Assembly: GCA_021790935.1 (NCBI GenBank)
Contig: JAJYFL010000007.1
Coordinates: 1 to 64,000, forward strand
DNA: 64,000 nucleotides
Reading direction: 5' to 3'
Source of the DNA: a bacterium
Lineage (GTDB): Bacteria > Vulcanimicrobiota > Vulcanimicrobiia > Vulcanimicrobiales > Vulcanimicrobiaceae
Position numbers and translations under genes: made by a program. Positions 15,893 to 24,530 of the stretch are shown here, piece by piece. The notes under the pieces were generated by a model. The model saw only the letters and a program-made list of their open reading frames with translations. It ran no database searches and was not told the DNA's origin. Position 1 is the first letter of the stretch, and each line of letters begins with the position of its first letter.

Positions 15893-16936
15893 ATGAAACG
15901 GCCGACCCTTCTTCCGTTGGTTCTTTTCGTTATTGCGGCCATGCTGCCGGCGACGCTGCTGCTCGTTCGCAACGGGCCGCCGCAGCCCGCGGCCGCTGCC
16001 GTGCTCCCGACCCCGACCCCGACCCCCGTCGGCATTGCCTACGACGAAATCACGCGTATGGCTTTTGGTAACGCTACGCCGCCGCCGCCCGGTTCGTTCC
16101 AACCGGATTACCGGCGCATCATCGCCGACATCCCGCCGGCCAACCAACCGGCGCCCGCCGCTCATGGCCTCGGCGGACTGCTCGGCCGAATGATGGGCGG
16201 GCAGAACATGGCGCAGATGGAGAGCGGTCTGAACATGATGCGCGACGGTACGCTCAAGCGCTATACCTTCTACTGGGTGCGCGGGTGGATCCGGGTCGAC
16301 GACCCCGCCGCGCACACGGCTCAGATCGAGAAGTGCAGCGAGCACCAGACCATTCTGCTCGACCTCGCTCGCAAGACGTACCGCATCGTGGAGATGACCG
16401 AAGGCGGGGGTGCACCGCCTCCGCCGCCAGCGCCGCGCTACGGCCCAGCCCCGCCACCGGCGGGACCCGGCACGGGCGTCATGACCGTCTCCAACAAGGT
16501 GCAAGCGCTCGGGCCGAAGACGCTCGAAGGTATTCACACGCGCGGTTACGCCACGACGGCCTCGATGGAGATGTCGAAGGCGACGGGCACCTGCACTAAC
16601 GGCGCCTACGGGGCCGCGACCGTGGAGTATATCTCCGGGATCCACAAGCCGCGGGCATACTGCCCGCTCCCGAGGACGCGGGCGATGGGCATGAACGGAA
16701 TGCCGGGCGCGCGGGGCGGCTGCAAGCCGCGCATGATCGTCCGCAGCAGCGGTCCGGGCAAGCCGTCGGGCTACCTCGCGATGTATCGCCGAACGTCGTT
16801 CAAAGCCGGCAATAGCGCCGGAGCGCACGGAGCCGGCGGCGCGTTCGTGATGGAGCGCGGAAACGTAGACTGGTTCTACAACCCGGACGTCCCAGCGCTC
16901 TTCTCCATCCCGGCCGGTTTCAAACAGATTCGCTAA
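15893..16936 (+). CDS. Secreted or membrane-anchored proline-rich protein of unknown function
   Basis: 347 residues. An N-terminal signal or anchor (PLVLFVIAAMLPATLLLV, residues 7-24) is followed by a Pro/Thr stretch (PTPTPTPV) and a Gly/Met-rich segment (GGLLGRMMGGQNMAQM). A domain with YTFYWVRGWIRVDD follows, then a Pro-rich linker (APPPPPAPRYGPAPPPAGPG) and a C-terminal domain with several Cys. The start ATG has TGGAGGTG 6 nt upstream. I do not recognise the family. The layout of two small domains separated by Pro linkers suggests an exported protein. It is alone on its strand here, and its last 17 nt overlap the convergent M3-like gene. Confidence 0.75.
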   Translation: MKRPTLLPLVLFVIAAMLPATLLLVRNGPPQPAAAAVLPTPTPTPVGIAYDEITRMAFGNATPPPPGSFQPDYRRIIADIPPANQPAPAAHGLGGLLGRMMGGQNMAQMESGLNMMRDGTLKRYTFYWVRGWIRVDDPAAHTAQIEKCSEHQTILLDLARKTYRIVEMTEGGGAPPPPPAPRYGPAPPPAGPGTGVMTVSNKVQALGPKTLEGIHTRGYATTASMEMSKATGTCTNGAYGAATVEYISGIHKPRAYCPLPRTRAMGMNGMPGARGGCKPRMIVRSSGPGKPSGYLAMYRRTSFKAGNSAGAHGAGGAFVMERGNVDWFYNPDVPALFSIPAGFKQIR

Positions 16937-18809
16937 TGCCGAGGTAGTCGTAGAACGGGGCGAGCGTCAACCGATGACCGGTGAAGCGCTCGATCTCCCT
17001 GCGCTGGTCGTGTACGGCGCCCGGCTCCAGGATCTCGCGCCGCAGGTGCATGCCCGTTGCCGGATCGGTCAGCCCGTCCCGTTCGAGAACGCCGAAGATC
17101 TCCTGCGCGTACAAGCGCGACCAAAGGCTGTCGTAACAAGCAACGCCATCGGAATCCATAAGCGCCTGGAACGACGCCTGTGGTTGAGTGGCCGTTGCGG
17201 TATCGACGACCGGCCCGCGCATCTGGTACTCGAGCTCCAGCCTGGCGGTGGAGAGACGCTTCGCCGTAAAGAGCGGCCGATCGACCCGGCTTCGCTCGAT
17301 CGCGGCCTCGACGAGCGCGGCAGGCGGTGAGGCACCAGTCTGCGGATCGACGCCGATCGATTCGAGGATCGCCCTCTGCGCGGCGTAGTTTTCGAAGATC
17401 TGGGCCGGTAGATTTGCCATGTCCCGGTCGGCGGCCACGGCGAGCGTCTCGTACGGCGCGGTCGAGAGCAGCGCCGCTATATTGCTCCCGGCCGCTCCGA
17501 AGAGGCGTACGAGGTCCGCATAACGCAGCAGCGACGGCTTGCCGGGAGCCGCAGGCGGCACGTCACCGAGAATCGCGGTGACCTCCGGCCGGTAGCCTCC
17601 TCCCGGAAGCTTTCGCGCCGGCAAGAGCGTGACATACCTGAAGCCCTGGTAGGAGGCTGGCAGGGCGTGCAGGTCGACGTAGGTCGTTCCAAGCAGGCGC
17701 CCGTCTGTTGCATCGCTGATCTGGTATACCGCCACCCGAGATTCCCACGCAACGGCTGCAGGCAGCCGCACAAAGTCGACGCCCAGCGTTCCGCCCAGCA
17801 GGTCGAACACGGCGGCCAGCGTGTGCCTTGCGGGAAAGTAGGCGCGAAGCGCACCCCGCGCCACGGGGTAGCGCATCGATCTCTCGATCCGGTCGTAGTA
17901 GAAAAGGTCCCACGGTTCGAGTTTGGCTGCCGGGTCTGCCGTTCGTTCGGCCTTAATCGCCGTCAGCGCCGCGAGGTCCGCACGTGCCGCCGGCATCAGC
18001 ACGGCGTCGAGCTCTCCGAGGAGTTTGAGAACGCGGCCGGGCGTCCTCGCCATGCGAGCCGCCAGGCGGTAGTCGTCCCACGTTTCGTAGCCAAGAAGAT
18101 GCGCGATGCGGTCGCGAAGCGCGATCGCGCGTTCCACGAGCTTCGCCTCGCCTGCGGCGCGCTTTTCATAGGCGAGGTAAAAGGCTCGGCGAAGGTGCTC
18201 CTGCGGTTCATGCCGCAGGAACGAGCGCGCCGCCCGGCGGTCCGCCGGCACGTCGCGCAGGACCGCAGCGTGGAGACTTCGTTCAAACTCTAGCCGAACC
18301 GCCTGGAGTTCAACTTCTCGGCGCTGCAGTTCGGCACGGCGTACGGGAGCCGCGGCGGCGCCGGCGCGCCCTGCCCGCCGCAGCCAGCGGGCTACGAGCG
18401 CGCGATGCGCAGCGTTTCGGCCGACTCCGCGGCGCCGTGCTCGGACGAGAGCTGCGTAGAGACGAGGCTTGGAGGCGAGTCCCTGCAGAAACGATGCCAC
18501 ACCATCGCGGCACGCCAACGAGGCAGCACGCACCCGGGCATCGGGCGACACCTCCCGGAGAAACCGATCGACGGCGGTGGCGTCGTGCAGATCGGCCGTA
18601 AGGTCCTCGAGCGGGAGCACGATCGAGGCATATGACGGCGCGCTTTTCGTAGCGAGAAGAAGGCTCGAACGCCTCCGCGCTCCCGAGAGCGCGTGCGTGC
18701 ACGTGCGCGCGATCTGGCCGGCGGAGCGGTGCCAGGGCAGCTGGGACGACGGGGCTCGAGTGGCGGCCAGCAGAAGCACGCAGAGGAGCGAGGGCAGGAT
18801 TCGCGTCAC
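16920..18809 (-). CDS. Secreted M3-family metallopeptidase homologue without zinc ligands (probable pseudoenzyme)
   Basis: 629 residues with an N-terminal signal peptide (ILPSLLCVLLLAAT). Mid-protein LGYETWDDYRLAARMA and WDLFYYDRIERSMRYPVARG, and the C-terminal FTGHRLTLAPFYDYLGI, resemble M3 oligopeptidases. Where active members read PSLL...LFHEFGHALH, this protein reads PSLLRYADLVRLFGAAGSNI, so HExxH is gone. Where they have the third-ligand Glu before PSQ..ENW, it reads DMANLPAQIFENY, with Asn. The open frame is intact over its whole length, so it is not a decayed gene. A peptide-binding or regulatory role is possible. I am fairly sure of the family and sure that the motif is absent. Confidence 0.75.
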   Translation of the reverse strand: MTRILPSLLCVLLLAATRAPSSQLPWHRSAGQIARTCTHALSGARRRSSLLLATKSAPSYASIVLPLEDLTADLHDATAVDRFLREVSPDARVRAASLACRDGVASFLQGLASKPRLYAALVRARRRGVGRNAAHRALVARWLRRAGRAGAAAAPVRRAELQRREVELQAVRLEFERSLHAAVLRDVPADRRAARSFLRHEPQEHLRRAFYLAYEKRAAGEAKLVERAIALRDRIAHLLGYETWDDYRLAARMARTPGRVLKLLGELDAVLMPAARADLAALTAIKAERTADPAAKLEPWDLFYYDRIERSMRYPVARGALRAYFPARHTLAAVFDLLGGTLGVDFVRLPAAVAWESRVAVYQISDATDGRLLGTTYVDLHALPASYQGFRYVTLLPARKLPGGGYRPEVTAILGDVPPAAPGKPSLLRYADLVRLFGAAGSNIAALLSTAPYETLAVAADRDMANLPAQIFENYAAQRAILESIGVDPQTGASPPAALVEAAIERSRVDRPLFTAKRLSTARLELEYQMRGPVVDTATATQPQASFQALMDSDGVACYDSLWSRLYAQEIFGVLERDGLTDPATGMHLRREILEPGAVHDQRREIERFTGHRLTLAPFYDYLGISESV

Positions 18810-18943: not shown

Positions 18944-19063
18944 GGCCACGGCGGGGGTTGGGCTTCGCGCGGCGTAATCTCGTGAACCCCGCCAGGACCG
19001 GGAGGTAGCAACGGTAAGCGAGTCCTTACGGGTGCCGCGAACCACCTATCCTCCGCCGTGGTG
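18944..19063 (+). ncRNA. ffs: Signal recognition particle RNA, small bacterial type (4.5S)
   Basis: The core CAGGACCGGGAGGTAGCAAC (about 18993-19012) matches the universal SRP RNA domain IV, with the asymmetric loop that binds Ffh and the GGTAGCAA side. It is flanked by pairing strands AACCCCGCC and GGGTGCCGCG-type sequence. The ends close with a 9-bp helix, CCACGGCGG (18946-18954) with CCGCCGTGG (19053-19061). The length of about 118 nt fits the small form without an Alu domain. The ends are set by the helix and may shift by a few bases. Confidence 0.9.
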
Positions 19064-19083: not shown

Positions 19084-19572
19084 ATGCAGATACTCATCAT
19101 CGCCTCATGCGCCTCGTTCTCGGGCGCGCTCCTCGCCCTGCTCGTCTACCACTTGGCCGTGGTACGCCGGTCGCTTAAGGGCGTGCGCGGCAGCCTTGCC
19201 GTCATCGACGGGCTCCTCGGCGGGAAGGCCGGCACGGCCACGAACCGTCTCTCGGCGCTGGAAGATATCGCCGCGGAAGAGCGGTCCCTCTTGGCGGGTA
19301 TCCAGGCGCGGCTAACCGAACTCGAAGGCCTGGCCCGAACGGATATCTCGCGGATCGGCTTCGAGCGCTACGACGCGTTCGACGATACGGGCTCCGAGCT
19401 ATCGTATGCTTTAGCCTTGCTCAATCGCGAGGGCGACGGGGTCGTGCTGACGAGCATCTACTCTCGCACGGATTCGCGAACGTTCGGCAAAGCCGTAGAG
19501 AAATTCGAGCCGGTCGTACATGCGTCGCCGGAAGAGTTGCGCGCCATAGCCAGTGCGCGCGATCGGAGGTAA
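19084..19572 (+). CDS. DUF4446 family membrane-anchored protein
   Basis: 162 residues. One N-terminal transmembrane helix (LIIASCASFSGALLALLVYHL) is followed by a helical, probably coiled-coil segment (residues about 25-85). The DUF4446 core is IGFERYDAFDDTGSELSYALALLNREGDGVVLTSIYSRTDSRTFGKAVEKF. The function of the family is unknown. It starts 20 nt after the SRP RNA and 10 nt before the start of the M23 peptidase gene, which also has one N-terminal membrane helix and a coiled coil. Cell-envelope work together is possible (inference). Confidence 0.85.
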   Translation: MQILIIASCASFSGALLALLVYHLAVVRRSLKGVRGSLAVIDGLLGGKAGTATNRLSALEDIAAEERSLLAGIQARLTELEGLARTDISRIGFERYDAFDDTGSELSYALALLNREGDGVVLTSIYSRTDSRTFGKAVEKFEPVVHASPEELRAIASARDRR

Positions 19573-19582
19573 CGAGCATTTC

Positions 19583-20542
19583 ATGAACGTCAAACATTTC
19601 ATAAAGGAGCGGTATTTCATTAAAATCGTTCCGGCGCGCGGCGACGCGATCCATCGATTTGAAGTAACCCGCCGGCATATCATCGCCGGCGCGAGCGCCC
19701 TGCTCGTTCTCATGTGCGCCTCCGTCGGGCTCGGCGCTTGGCAGGTCGCCCAAGCGCACGCGCAGGTCGCCGCGCTGCGGTCGCTCACCGTGCGCCAGAG
19801 CTCGCAGCTACGCTCGATAGCGTCGAAGACCTCGGCGATCGGCATGCAGCTCCGGGGCGTGCAAAAGCAAGATCGGGAGATCCAGGAGCTGATCGGCGTG
19901 AAGCCCGCTAGCGCTGCGCCGAGCAGCAAGCACGTGAAGCCCGTGCGCCTAGATGGGCGCAACCCCATCGGACAGGTCACGCGAAATGTAGACAGCCTGC
20001 GGGCGAGCATGGCGCAGACGAGCGCGCTCTCCGATATGCTGCGAACCATGGCGATGCACGTCCTGAACGTCCGGCACATCTACGAACTGGCGCGCGCGAA
20101 GGCGATCGCCGCGATCCCGTCTATCGACCCGGTTGCGGGGGCCACGATCGTAGGCTGTTTCTGCTACCGTACTTACCCGGACGTGGAGTTCCACGAAGGG
20201 GTCGATCTCGCGGCGAACTACGGGGCTCCGGTGCGTGCGGCCGCCGCGGGCACGATCGTGAGTGCAGGGTGGGACGGAGGCTACGGCATCAAAGTCGATA
20301 TCGATCACGGGAACGGGTACCACACGTGGTACGCGCACCTTTCGCGCGTCGACGTACGCGTCGGCCAGCACGTCTTCAAGGGCGAGACGATCGCGCAGGT
20401 TGGATCGACCGGCTTTTCGACCGGGCCGCACGTCCACTATCAGGTGATGCTCGACGGTACCCCCGTCGATCCGACGCCGTATCTGCACGGTATCCCCGCC
20501 GGGATCCTGGCCTCGCTCGCCCCCAAGTCCAGCGGAGCCTAG
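19583..20542 (+). CDS. M23-family murein endopeptidase, membrane-anchored
   Basis: 319 residues. A transmembrane anchor (HIIAGASALLVLMCASVGLGAW, about residues 33-54) is followed by a coiled-coil linker, then an M23/LytM domain near residues 195-305. The zinc ligands are FHEGVDLAANYGAPV (H-x-x-x-D) and GPHVHYQV (H-x-H), and YHTWYAHLSR supplies another conserved His. All catalytic residues are present, so peptidoglycan peptide cleavage or division-linked activation is likely. GGAGGT lies about 12 nt upstream of ATG 19583, further than ideal. Confidence 0.9.
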   Translation: MNVKHFIKERYFIKIVPARGDAIHRFEVTRRHIIAGASALLVLMCASVGLGAWQVAQAHAQVAALRSLTVRQSSQLRSIASKTSAIGMQLRGVQKQDREIQELIGVKPASAAPSSKHVKPVRLDGRNPIGQVTRNVDSLRASMAQTSALSDMLRTMAMHVLNVRHIYELARAKAIAAIPSIDPVAGATIVGCFCYRTYPDVEFHEGVDLAANYGAPVRAAAAGTIVSAGWDGGYGIKVDIDHGNGYHTWYAHLSRVDVRVGQHVFKGETIAQVGSTGFSTGPHVHYQVMLDGTPVDPTPYLHGIPAGILASLAPKSSGA

Positions 20543-20553
20543 CGCCGGCACCC

Positions 20554-20832
20554 GTGAACTCCTTACTGTGCTCCTTCCTCAACGGTCTCCATACCGTCAT
20601 CTGGATCTACACGATCATCATGCTGATCTACGCCGTGCTCTCCTGGATCCCGGATCTTCGTGGGCGTTGGAGCGACGCGATCGGGATGCTCGTCGAGCCG
20701 GTACTGGCGCCGGTGCGGCGTATCATCCCGCCCATGATGGGTCTGGACCTCTCTTTCTTGGTCGTAATCGTGCTGCTCCAACTCGTCGACGGCGTCATCG
20801 GTCGGTACGCGTTCAACGCGTGTTATCTGTAG
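20554..20832 (+). CDS. YggT family membrane protein
   Basis: 92 residues from GTG 20554. Two hydrophobic helices (VIWIYTIIMLIYAVLSWI and LSFLVVIVLLQLVDGVI) flank the typical EPVLAPVRRIIPPMMGLDLS loop. YggT proteins are small inner-membrane proteins of uncertain function, linked in different bacteria to osmotic stress and to septum or thylakoid organisation. It lies between an M23 peptidase and lepA, 3 nt before the lepA start. Confidence 0.9.
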   Translation: MNSLLCSFLNGLHTVIWIYTIIMLIYAVLSWIPDLRGRWSDAIGMLVEPVLAPVRRIIPPMMGLDLSFLVVIVLLQLVDGVIGRYAFNACYL

Positions 20833-20835
20833 GCG

Positions 20836-22668
20836 TTGACGACCGCTAAAGCCGACTCCCTCCATCGCACGGAGGTTGCGGAACGCGTTCGCAACTTCTG
20901 TATCATCGCGCATATCGACCACGGGAAGACGACACTCTCCGACCGTCTGCTGGAACGCACGCGCTTGGCCGGCGGCCGCGATTTCGAAGACCAGGCGCTC
21001 GATGCAATGGACCTCGAACGCGAGCGCGGCATCACCATACGAATGCACCCGGTGACGATCAATTACGTCGCTCGCGACGGCCGGAGTTACCAGCTCAATC
21101 TGATCGACACGCCCGGGCACGTCGACTTCGCGTACGAAGTTTCGCGCTCGCTTGCCGCCTGCGAGGGCGCGATCCTTATTATCGACGCCGCGCAAGGCAT
21201 CGAGGCTCAGACCCTGGCCAACTACCACCTCGCGCTCGAGCACGATCTTACGATCATTCCGGTCATCAACAAGATCGATCTGCCCGCGGCCGACCCCGAG
21301 CGCGTGATGGGCGAGGTGGAGGAGCTACTCGTCATCGAAAAAAGCGACTGCATTTTGGCGAGCGCCAAGAACGGCATAGGGGTCGACGATATCCTCGAAG
21401 CGATCGTAAGCCGCATCCCTCCGCCCGCGGGACACGCCGATCGCCTGCGCGGCCTCGTCTTCAACGCGCAATTCGACGCGTACCGTGGCGTCGTCAGCTA
21501 CGTTCGCGTGGTCGACGGCCGCCTTCGGGCAGGCACGCGGTTCATGTCGATGGCGCACCAGCGCGTATATGAATGTACCGAGGTCGGCATCTTCAGTCCG
21601 CAGATGCAGGCCACCGAGCAACTCGATATGGGCAGCGTCGGCTATGCCATCGCGAATGTGAAGTCGCTCGGCGATATCGACGTCGGCGACACCATTACCG
21701 AAGCAAATCATCCCGCGCACGTACCCCTGCCGGGTTACCGCAAAGCGGTCCCCATGGTCTATTGCGGGCTCTATCCGAACGAAGGTGCGGCTTACGACGA
21801 CCTTCGCGACGCACTCGAAAAACTGAAGCTCAACGATGCGGCGCTGGTCTACGAACCGGAGAGCTCGGTGGCTCTGGGGTTTGGCTTTCGGTGCGGCTTC
21901 TTGGGTCTGCTGCACATGGAGATCGTGCAGGAGCGCTTGGAGCGCAACTACGCCCTCGACCTCATCGCCACGTCGCCTTCGGTCGTTTTCCGCGTAACCA
22001 AGACCGACGGCGACGTGCAAATCGTCGACAACCCGAGCAAACTTCCGGCCGGTAACTTGATCCGGTTGATCGAGGAGCCGTACGTCAAGGCGACGATCAT
22101 GACTCCCCCCGATTACGTCGGGTCCATTATGGAGATCACGCAGTCGCGGCGGGGCACGCTCGGCAACATGGAATATCTGCACGACGGCCGCGTGATTCTC
22201 ACTTACGAAATGCCTCTCGTCGAGGTTATCGTAGACTTCTTCGATCAGCTGAAATCGCGCACGAAAGGGTACGCCTCACTCGACTACGACATGGTCGGAT
22301 ACCGGGAAGGCGACCTCGTCAAGCTCGAGATACTCCTCAACGGCGAGCCGGTGGACGCGCTCTCCTTCATCGTAGCTCGGGAGCGTGCGGCTCATAGAGG
22401 GCGCATTCTCACGGAAAAGTTGAAGGAACTAATACCGCGCCAGATGTTCGAGGTCCCGATTCAAGCTGCGATCGGCGGAAAGATCGTGGCCCGCGAAACC
22501 GTAAGCGCCATACGTAAGAACGTACTTGCCAAATGCTACGGCGGCGACATTACCCGCAAGCGCAAACTCCTGGAGAAACAGAAGGTCGGTAAGGCGCGTA
22601 TGAAGCGGGTCGGCCGCGTCGATTTGCCGCAAGAGGCATTCATGGCCGTGTTGCGACTGGAAGATTGA
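20836..22668 (+). CDS. lepA: Elongation factor 4 (LepA), ribosome-associated GTPase
   Basis: A translational GTPase that remodels ribosomes. 610 residues from TTG 20836. The GTPase motifs are [17 protein letters not shown] (G1), RGITI (G2), [12 protein letters not shown] (G3), NKIDLP (G4) and the SAK region (G5). The unique C-terminal domain ends with [20 protein letters not shown], which contacts tRNA. The length and domain order are normal for the family. The TTG start is 3 nt after the YggT stop. Confidence 0.97.
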
Positions 22669-24194: not shown

Positions 24195-24268
24195 CGGGAC
24201 GTAGCTCAGCTTGGTAGAGCGCTTGCTTTGGGAGCAAGAAGTCGCAGGTTCAAATCCTGTCGTCCCGA
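24195..24268 (+). tRNA. tRNA-Pro (anticodon TGG)
   Basis: 74 nt. The acceptor CGGGACG pairs with CGTCCCG, the anticodon stem is CTTGC/GCAAG with loop TTTGGGA, and the T loop is GTTCAAAT. No CCA is encoded. Confidence 0.97.
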
Positions 24269-24343
24269 TACGACACCGGGAACGAGGCGCTTGCGCGGGC
24301 GTGCTATTCTTGTTGGGGTACCAGCGTCGCCGGGATCGATCGT

Positions 24344-24416
<73 letters not shown>

Positions 24417-24453
24417 CGACTTCGGAATTCCCCTCGGTTCCCGCACGTACATG

Positions 24454-24530
24454 GTGACTGTAGCTCAGCTGGTTAGAGCGCTAGACTGTGACTCTAGAGG
24501 TCGCGGGTTCGACCCCCGTCAGTCACCCCA
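24454..24530 (+). tRNA. tRNA-His (anticodon GTG), CCA encoded
   Basis: The acceptor GTGACTG pairs with CAGTCAC and the anticodon stem is CTAGA/TCTAG with loop CTGTGAC. Discriminator C at 24527 is followed by CCA (24528-24530). A G at 24453 is placed to be the G-1 needed for histidyl-tRNA synthetase. Confidence 0.97.

Follow-up and report, generated by a model that had tools for sequence, protein, structure and literature searches.

The window, by which we mean the whole analysed stretch of 64,000 nucleotides, carries on its reverse strand a gene for a homologue of the M3 peptidases, next to a conserved gene cluster that includes lepA. Gene content of this sort hints at a host from Eremiobacterota/Vulcanimicrobiota. 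The features of the locus are the following.

15893–16936, (+) strand: convergent gene for a predicted exported protein, with a 17-bp overlap with the M3 stop; neighbour often but not always present
16920–18809, (−) strand: Peptidase_M3 homologue, predicted exported and, by its residues, catalytically dead (Pfam PF01432, E = 2.3e-49; AlphaFold2/Foldseek)
17127–17165, (−) strand: residues 549–561, former substrate loop (HLMGGYDAGYYGY in active enzymes; alignment)
17388–17414, (−) strand: residues 466–474, NLPAQIFEN replacing EAPSQMLEN, with the third-ligand Glu changed to Asn (alignment)
17484–17498, (−) strand: residues 438–442, GAAGS replacing HEFGH (alignment with 41 active relatives)
18744–18809, (−) strand: predicted signal peptide, approximately residues 1–22, MTRILPSLLCVLLLAATRAPSS (sequence reading)
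18956–19054, (+) strand: SRP RNA (Bacteria_small_SRP), between the M3 gene and the lepA cluster (Rfam RF00169, E = 3.7e-15)
19084–19572, (+) strand: DUF4446 protein, syntenic marker (PF14584, E = 5.6e-26; synteny)
19553–20542, (+) strand: Peptidase_M23 protein, syntenic marker (PF01551, E = 3e-36; synteny)
20560–20832, (+) strand: YggT-like membrane protein, syntenic marker (named by sequence reading; synteny)
20836–22668, (+) strand: LepA / elongation factor 4, syntenic marker (named by sequence reading; synteny)

Farther downstream in the window three tRNA genes stand in a row (24195–24527, (+) strand, RF00005). The SRP RNA gene lies directly upstream of the M3 gene on the opposite strand, and an SRP-RNA-like stretch can be read by eye upstream of M3 genes in several relatives. 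The product of the convergent gene has no Pfam family above cut-off; it is conserved near M3 in several genera with 35–45% identity. A link between this neighbour and M3 was dropped after tblastn placed no such gene beside M3 in g33, a genus of the same bacterial family considered below.

The M3 reading frame fills positions 16920–18809 exactly, starting with GTG and ending in a stop codon at 16920–16922, and encodes 629 amino acids. The Peptidase_M3 profile matches the protein with 169 bits (cut-off 27) over positions 2–453 out of 457, i.e. over its full length, so that the M3 homology claimed in the original prediction holds up in the HMM alignment that it had proposed. Sequence matches in the PDB are to neurolysin and thimet oligopeptidase (E-values 6e-37 to 4e-35). 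The N-terminus, with a basic residue, a hydrophobic core and small residues, reads as a signal peptide, again as had been predicted, and active M3 orthologues likewise start with a hydrophobic leader. A profile-based annotation would label this protein a peptidase.

The HExxH motif contributes two zinc ligands, its His residues, and the general base, its Glu. We aligned 49 sequences, 41 of them active relatives, and found that the positions invariant in the active enzymes are substituted in the window protein as H438G, E439A, H442S and E466N. The residues named in the original prediction (G, A and S for H, E and H; Asn for the third Glu) are thus the ones seen in the alignment. Its statement that all three zinc ligands were lost is right as to the ligands (H438G, H442S, E466N), with the correction that the Glu of HExxH is not a ligand; four functional residues of the zinc site are gone, two His ligands, the general-base Glu and the third-ligand Glu. 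To these losses, which the prediction had listed, we can add the substrate loop, where all four conserved His/Tyr residues are replaced (H549A, Y554D, Y558C and Y561S). As judged from its residues, the protein has lost everything needed for holding zinc or for cutting.

A scan of the whole protein for an HExxH elsewhere, the finding that would have spoken against the prediction, returned none. Both other species of the genus in the genome set, whose proteins are 90% and 86% identical to that of the window, show these substitutions too, with the frame unchanged and in separate assemblies, which rules out a sequencing or assembly error.

We searched for further HExxH-less relatives, as had been suggested, and found a group of eight dead proteins in three genera: the window genus, g33 (genomes G034, G095 and G096, all at the same locus) and g10 (G011 at the same locus; G089 on a short contig that does not reach lepA, its locus position being assumed). 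None of the eight keeps either His ligand or the His/Tyr substrate loop, and no HExxH occurs in any of them, which rules out a relocated zinc site.

An AlphaFold2 model of the window protein, built with 49 relatives, has pLDDT 88.3 and pTM 0.88. The top 15 Foldseek matches in the PDB are all M3 enzymes, with thimet oligopeptidase as the best (1s4b: E = 2.2e-31, TMq 0.88). The much more diverged dead protein of G095 (549 aa) is also modelled as M3, with pLDDT 89.1 and E = 9e-23 to 1s4b. The alignments given to AlphaFold2 include active sequences, so the confidence of these models is not independent of the active enzymes. At the level of fold, the dead protein is predicted to keep the M3 clam-shell.

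A fold predicted to remain could in principle house a newly arisen active site, using another metal or none, which would make the protein a different enzyme; pseudoenzymes do occasionally prove to be enzymes (PMC11266112). We think this very improbable: the cleft residues were lost without a common replacement, the motifs found in place of HExxH in the various dead proteins being GAAGS, RLMGR, GDAGR, GDLGG, GSVGS and DELGT.

The gene order SRP RNA–DUF4446–M23–YggT–LepA recurs among related genomes of the bacterial family, in which LepA is present in 85 of 99 genomes. An intact M3 gene occupies the same position in nine genera (G026, G102, G036, G029, G008, G006, G015, G005, G007, G010 and G114). 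Since these relatives carry an intact M3 gene there, the window gene is an in-place orthologue of an active M3 enzyme and not a spare copy. A duplicate of an active copy is likewise ruled out, with no such copy in the genus: the window genome (98.8% complete) and those of the other two species each hold a single other M3, a leaderless HEMGH protein. Many genera (g19, g24, g30, g51, g52 and others) have no M3 gene at the syntenic position, indicating frequent loss. At the loci without M3 (L099–L119) there is a gap between the DUF4446 and CDGSH genes; among the gap ORFs of the five genomes inspected no M3 remnants were recognised.

Inactive paralogues often serve as regulators or dimer partners of active enzymes, a common role of pseudoenzymes (PMC11266112), and this has to be weighed for the dead M3 proteins as well. 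In G011 an active copy exists elsewhere in the genome, and g33 and g10 hold active Dcp-like M3 paralogues. M3 enzymes, on the other hand, are monomeric clam-shells, and regulation of an active twin is unlikely because the window genus keeps only the one other, leaderless HEMGH enzyme, presumably cytoplasmic. We give such a role little credence.

In a tree of M3 proteins the dead proteins of each genus form one clade with 100% bootstrap support. A single clade of all dead proteins is not rejected (AU test, P = 0.21) and g33 is joined with g10 (support 96/99); with branches this long, the M3 tree leaves one or several origins undecided. In a tree of the flanking genes, the window genus groups with active G036, G029, G026 and G102; a single clade of the dead genera is rejected (AU test, P = 1e-6), as is g33 with g10 (P = 6e-5). 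Given this rejection by the flanking genes, three separate inactivations in place are likely, even though the M3 tree alone is compatible with one origin. The latter would mean that one ancient dead M3 reached this locus by transfer in each of the three genera. It could account for the M3 tree, including the union of g33 and g10, but the joins among dead proteins link the longest branches, the flanking genes contradict them, and the dead copies on contigs that reach that far occupy the ancestral site beside lepA. We regard such a transfer as improbable; it would be compatible with any functional explanation.

The trees contain other unusual members. Closely related active M3 proteins with end branches of 0.07–0.12 occur in three genera (L083, G011:C4:5081-7018; L125, G070; L128, G103) and look like a horizontally moving group; the L083-type gene of G011 lies away from the lepA locus and coexists with the dead copy of that genome. 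A protein from a g9 genome (L124, G116:C174:6256-8184) keeps HExxH on a very long branch (1.24) and is possibly another M3 changing function.

Among the three species of the window genus we observed dN/dS values of 0.36 (95% interval 0.25–0.48), 0.31 (0.23–0.41) and 0.35 (0.26–0.47), with no gap, indel or stop over 628–629 codons. The gene is therefore intact, as had been predicted, and it is under purifying selection, which is weak and relaxed in comparison with active relatives and most flanking genes. In active M3 pairs dN/dS (NG86) was 0.04–0.07, with one pair at 0.25; in flanking genes it was mostly 0.02–0.19, with one DUF4446 comparison at 0.36. The selection for a non-catalytic role proposed in the original prediction thus stands as purifying selection, with upper bounds of 0.41–0.48, but it is weaker than the phrase suggests and far more relaxed than in the active enzymes. 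Synonymous sites of the dead genes in g33 and g10 are almost saturated and dN is 0.45–0.58, with all frames open; frames of 503–549 codons in g33 stay open at dN of 0.5–0.6. Judged by branch lengths, the dead M3 evolves ∼7 times faster than its flanks, while the active M3 of sister genera evolves 1.2–1.9 times faster. The dead gene also has a higher GC content at the first and second codon positions (0.74 and 0.52, against 0.59 and 0.43 in an active orthologue), another sign of relaxation.

To see which residues were kept we used as a reference the 157 columns with 90% or more invariance among active enzymes. The window genus has lost 62 of the 157, including all eight catalytic or substrate columns (P = 4e-4); g10 and g33 have lost seven of these eight each (P ∼0.01). 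All three dead lineages retain 19 columns (C37, E68, D76, A96, C100, L138, G150, R232, A236, W244, P326, W355, V359, D366, G374, G441, Y453, E454 and R590), against 7.3 expected under independence, and none of 20,000 random draws was as high. This test assumes equal chances of retention; because structural residues would be kept together in any case, it speaks for a conserved fold better than for a conserved function. Most of the residues that all eight dead proteins retain belong to the N-terminal helical lobe, which has the conserved Cys37/Cys100 pair, or to the beta region. Of ten reference columns in the N-terminal lobe (residues 26–120), nine are kept in the window genus, eight in g33 and six in g10 (P = 0.1); the lobe is kept best in the window genus and g33, with g10 being less clear.

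These data bear on what we consider the main rival explanation, that the gene is a slowly decaying relic: M3 activity would have become dispensable, constraint collapsed, and the present gene would be an intermediate heading for deletion, devoid of any important role. With M3 absent from the locus in many sampled genera, the dead gene could indeed be on its way out, and the contrast in dN/dS with most active relatives, the drift in GC content and the shedding of segments by the g33 copies (frames of 512–578 codons) point the same way. Still, the dN/dS intervals exclude 1, none of the eight proteins of the three genera shows a frameshift or stop even at dN of ∼0.5, the shared retention of 19 columns is not random, and both the hydrophobic leader and the Cys pair are retained. 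We therefore hold decay to be unlikely, while taking it more seriously than the other alternatives.

The absence of catalytic residues, an intact gene and purifying selection (dN/dS of 0.31–0.36) are found here together, as in a pseudopeptidase. Our preferred reading, held with moderate confidence, is that the window gene, orthologous to an exported M3 oligopeptidase and still in place, ceased to encode a zinc-binding, catalytic protein in the ancestor of the genus, and that its product would still be made and exported as a non-catalytic binder. The full-length M3 domain and the M3 fold in the models of two dead proteins argue for this; the clearly relaxed selection and the fast evolution relative to the flanks argue against it. 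Outside the cytoplasm the exported protein would still adopt the M3 clam-shell fold and may bind a partner or a peptide, without cutting, via its remaining lobes. We prefer the lobes to the cleft because the kept residues are mainly in the N-terminal lobe and beta region, the catalytic cleft having been given up. Binding would then be a role that the active ancestor had besides cleavage. More tentatively, we suggest that in this bacterial family the exported M3 orthologue has, besides cleavage, a non-catalytic role that persists after peptidase activity is gone; on this view catalysis would have been lost in place at least three times, in the window genus with no duplicate to take it over, while the N-terminal lobe would have stayed under selection.

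Thimet oligopeptidase and neurolysin (MEROPS M3A; 1s4b, 1i1i) resemble the dead M3 in full-length homology and predicted fold (TMq 0.88–0.90), while the window protein is bacterial, predicted to be exported, and without HExxH, the third Glu ligand and the substrate His/Tyr loop. The active syntenic orthologues (e.g. G026, G036 and G029) share its locus, leader, Cys pair and N-terminal lobe at ∼37–39% identity over the whole protein; they differ in keeping HEFGH...EAPSQMLEN and the Tyr loop. Other peptidase families, too, have characterised members that lost zinc ligands but retained the fold: Gone early of M13, where all key positions are substituted as in the dead M3, AEBP1/CPXM of M14, alpha-MPP of M16 and FtsHi of M41 (PMC11266112). 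Bacterial pseudo-orthocaspases are likewise peptidase homologues without catalytic residues and with a presumed non-catalytic role, though of a cysteine-peptidase family (PMC6426788). A 2024 review of metallo-pseudopeptidases covers M1, M12–M16, M24 and M41, with no M3 member in its table (PMC11266112). Our searches of the open-access literature turned up no article about M3 pseudopeptidases. Unassigned non-peptidase homologues within M3 may be present in MEROPS.

Pseudoenzymes are in most known cases duplicates that exist alongside a functional copy. In the present case it is the sole orthologue whose active site was lost; within one bacterial family this apparently happened three times, and on every occasion the gene was retained. 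This amounts to a natural experiment on which part of an M3 protein is still required once cleavage is gone, and the repeated loss in two other genera suggests an as yet undescribed non-cutting role of the family.
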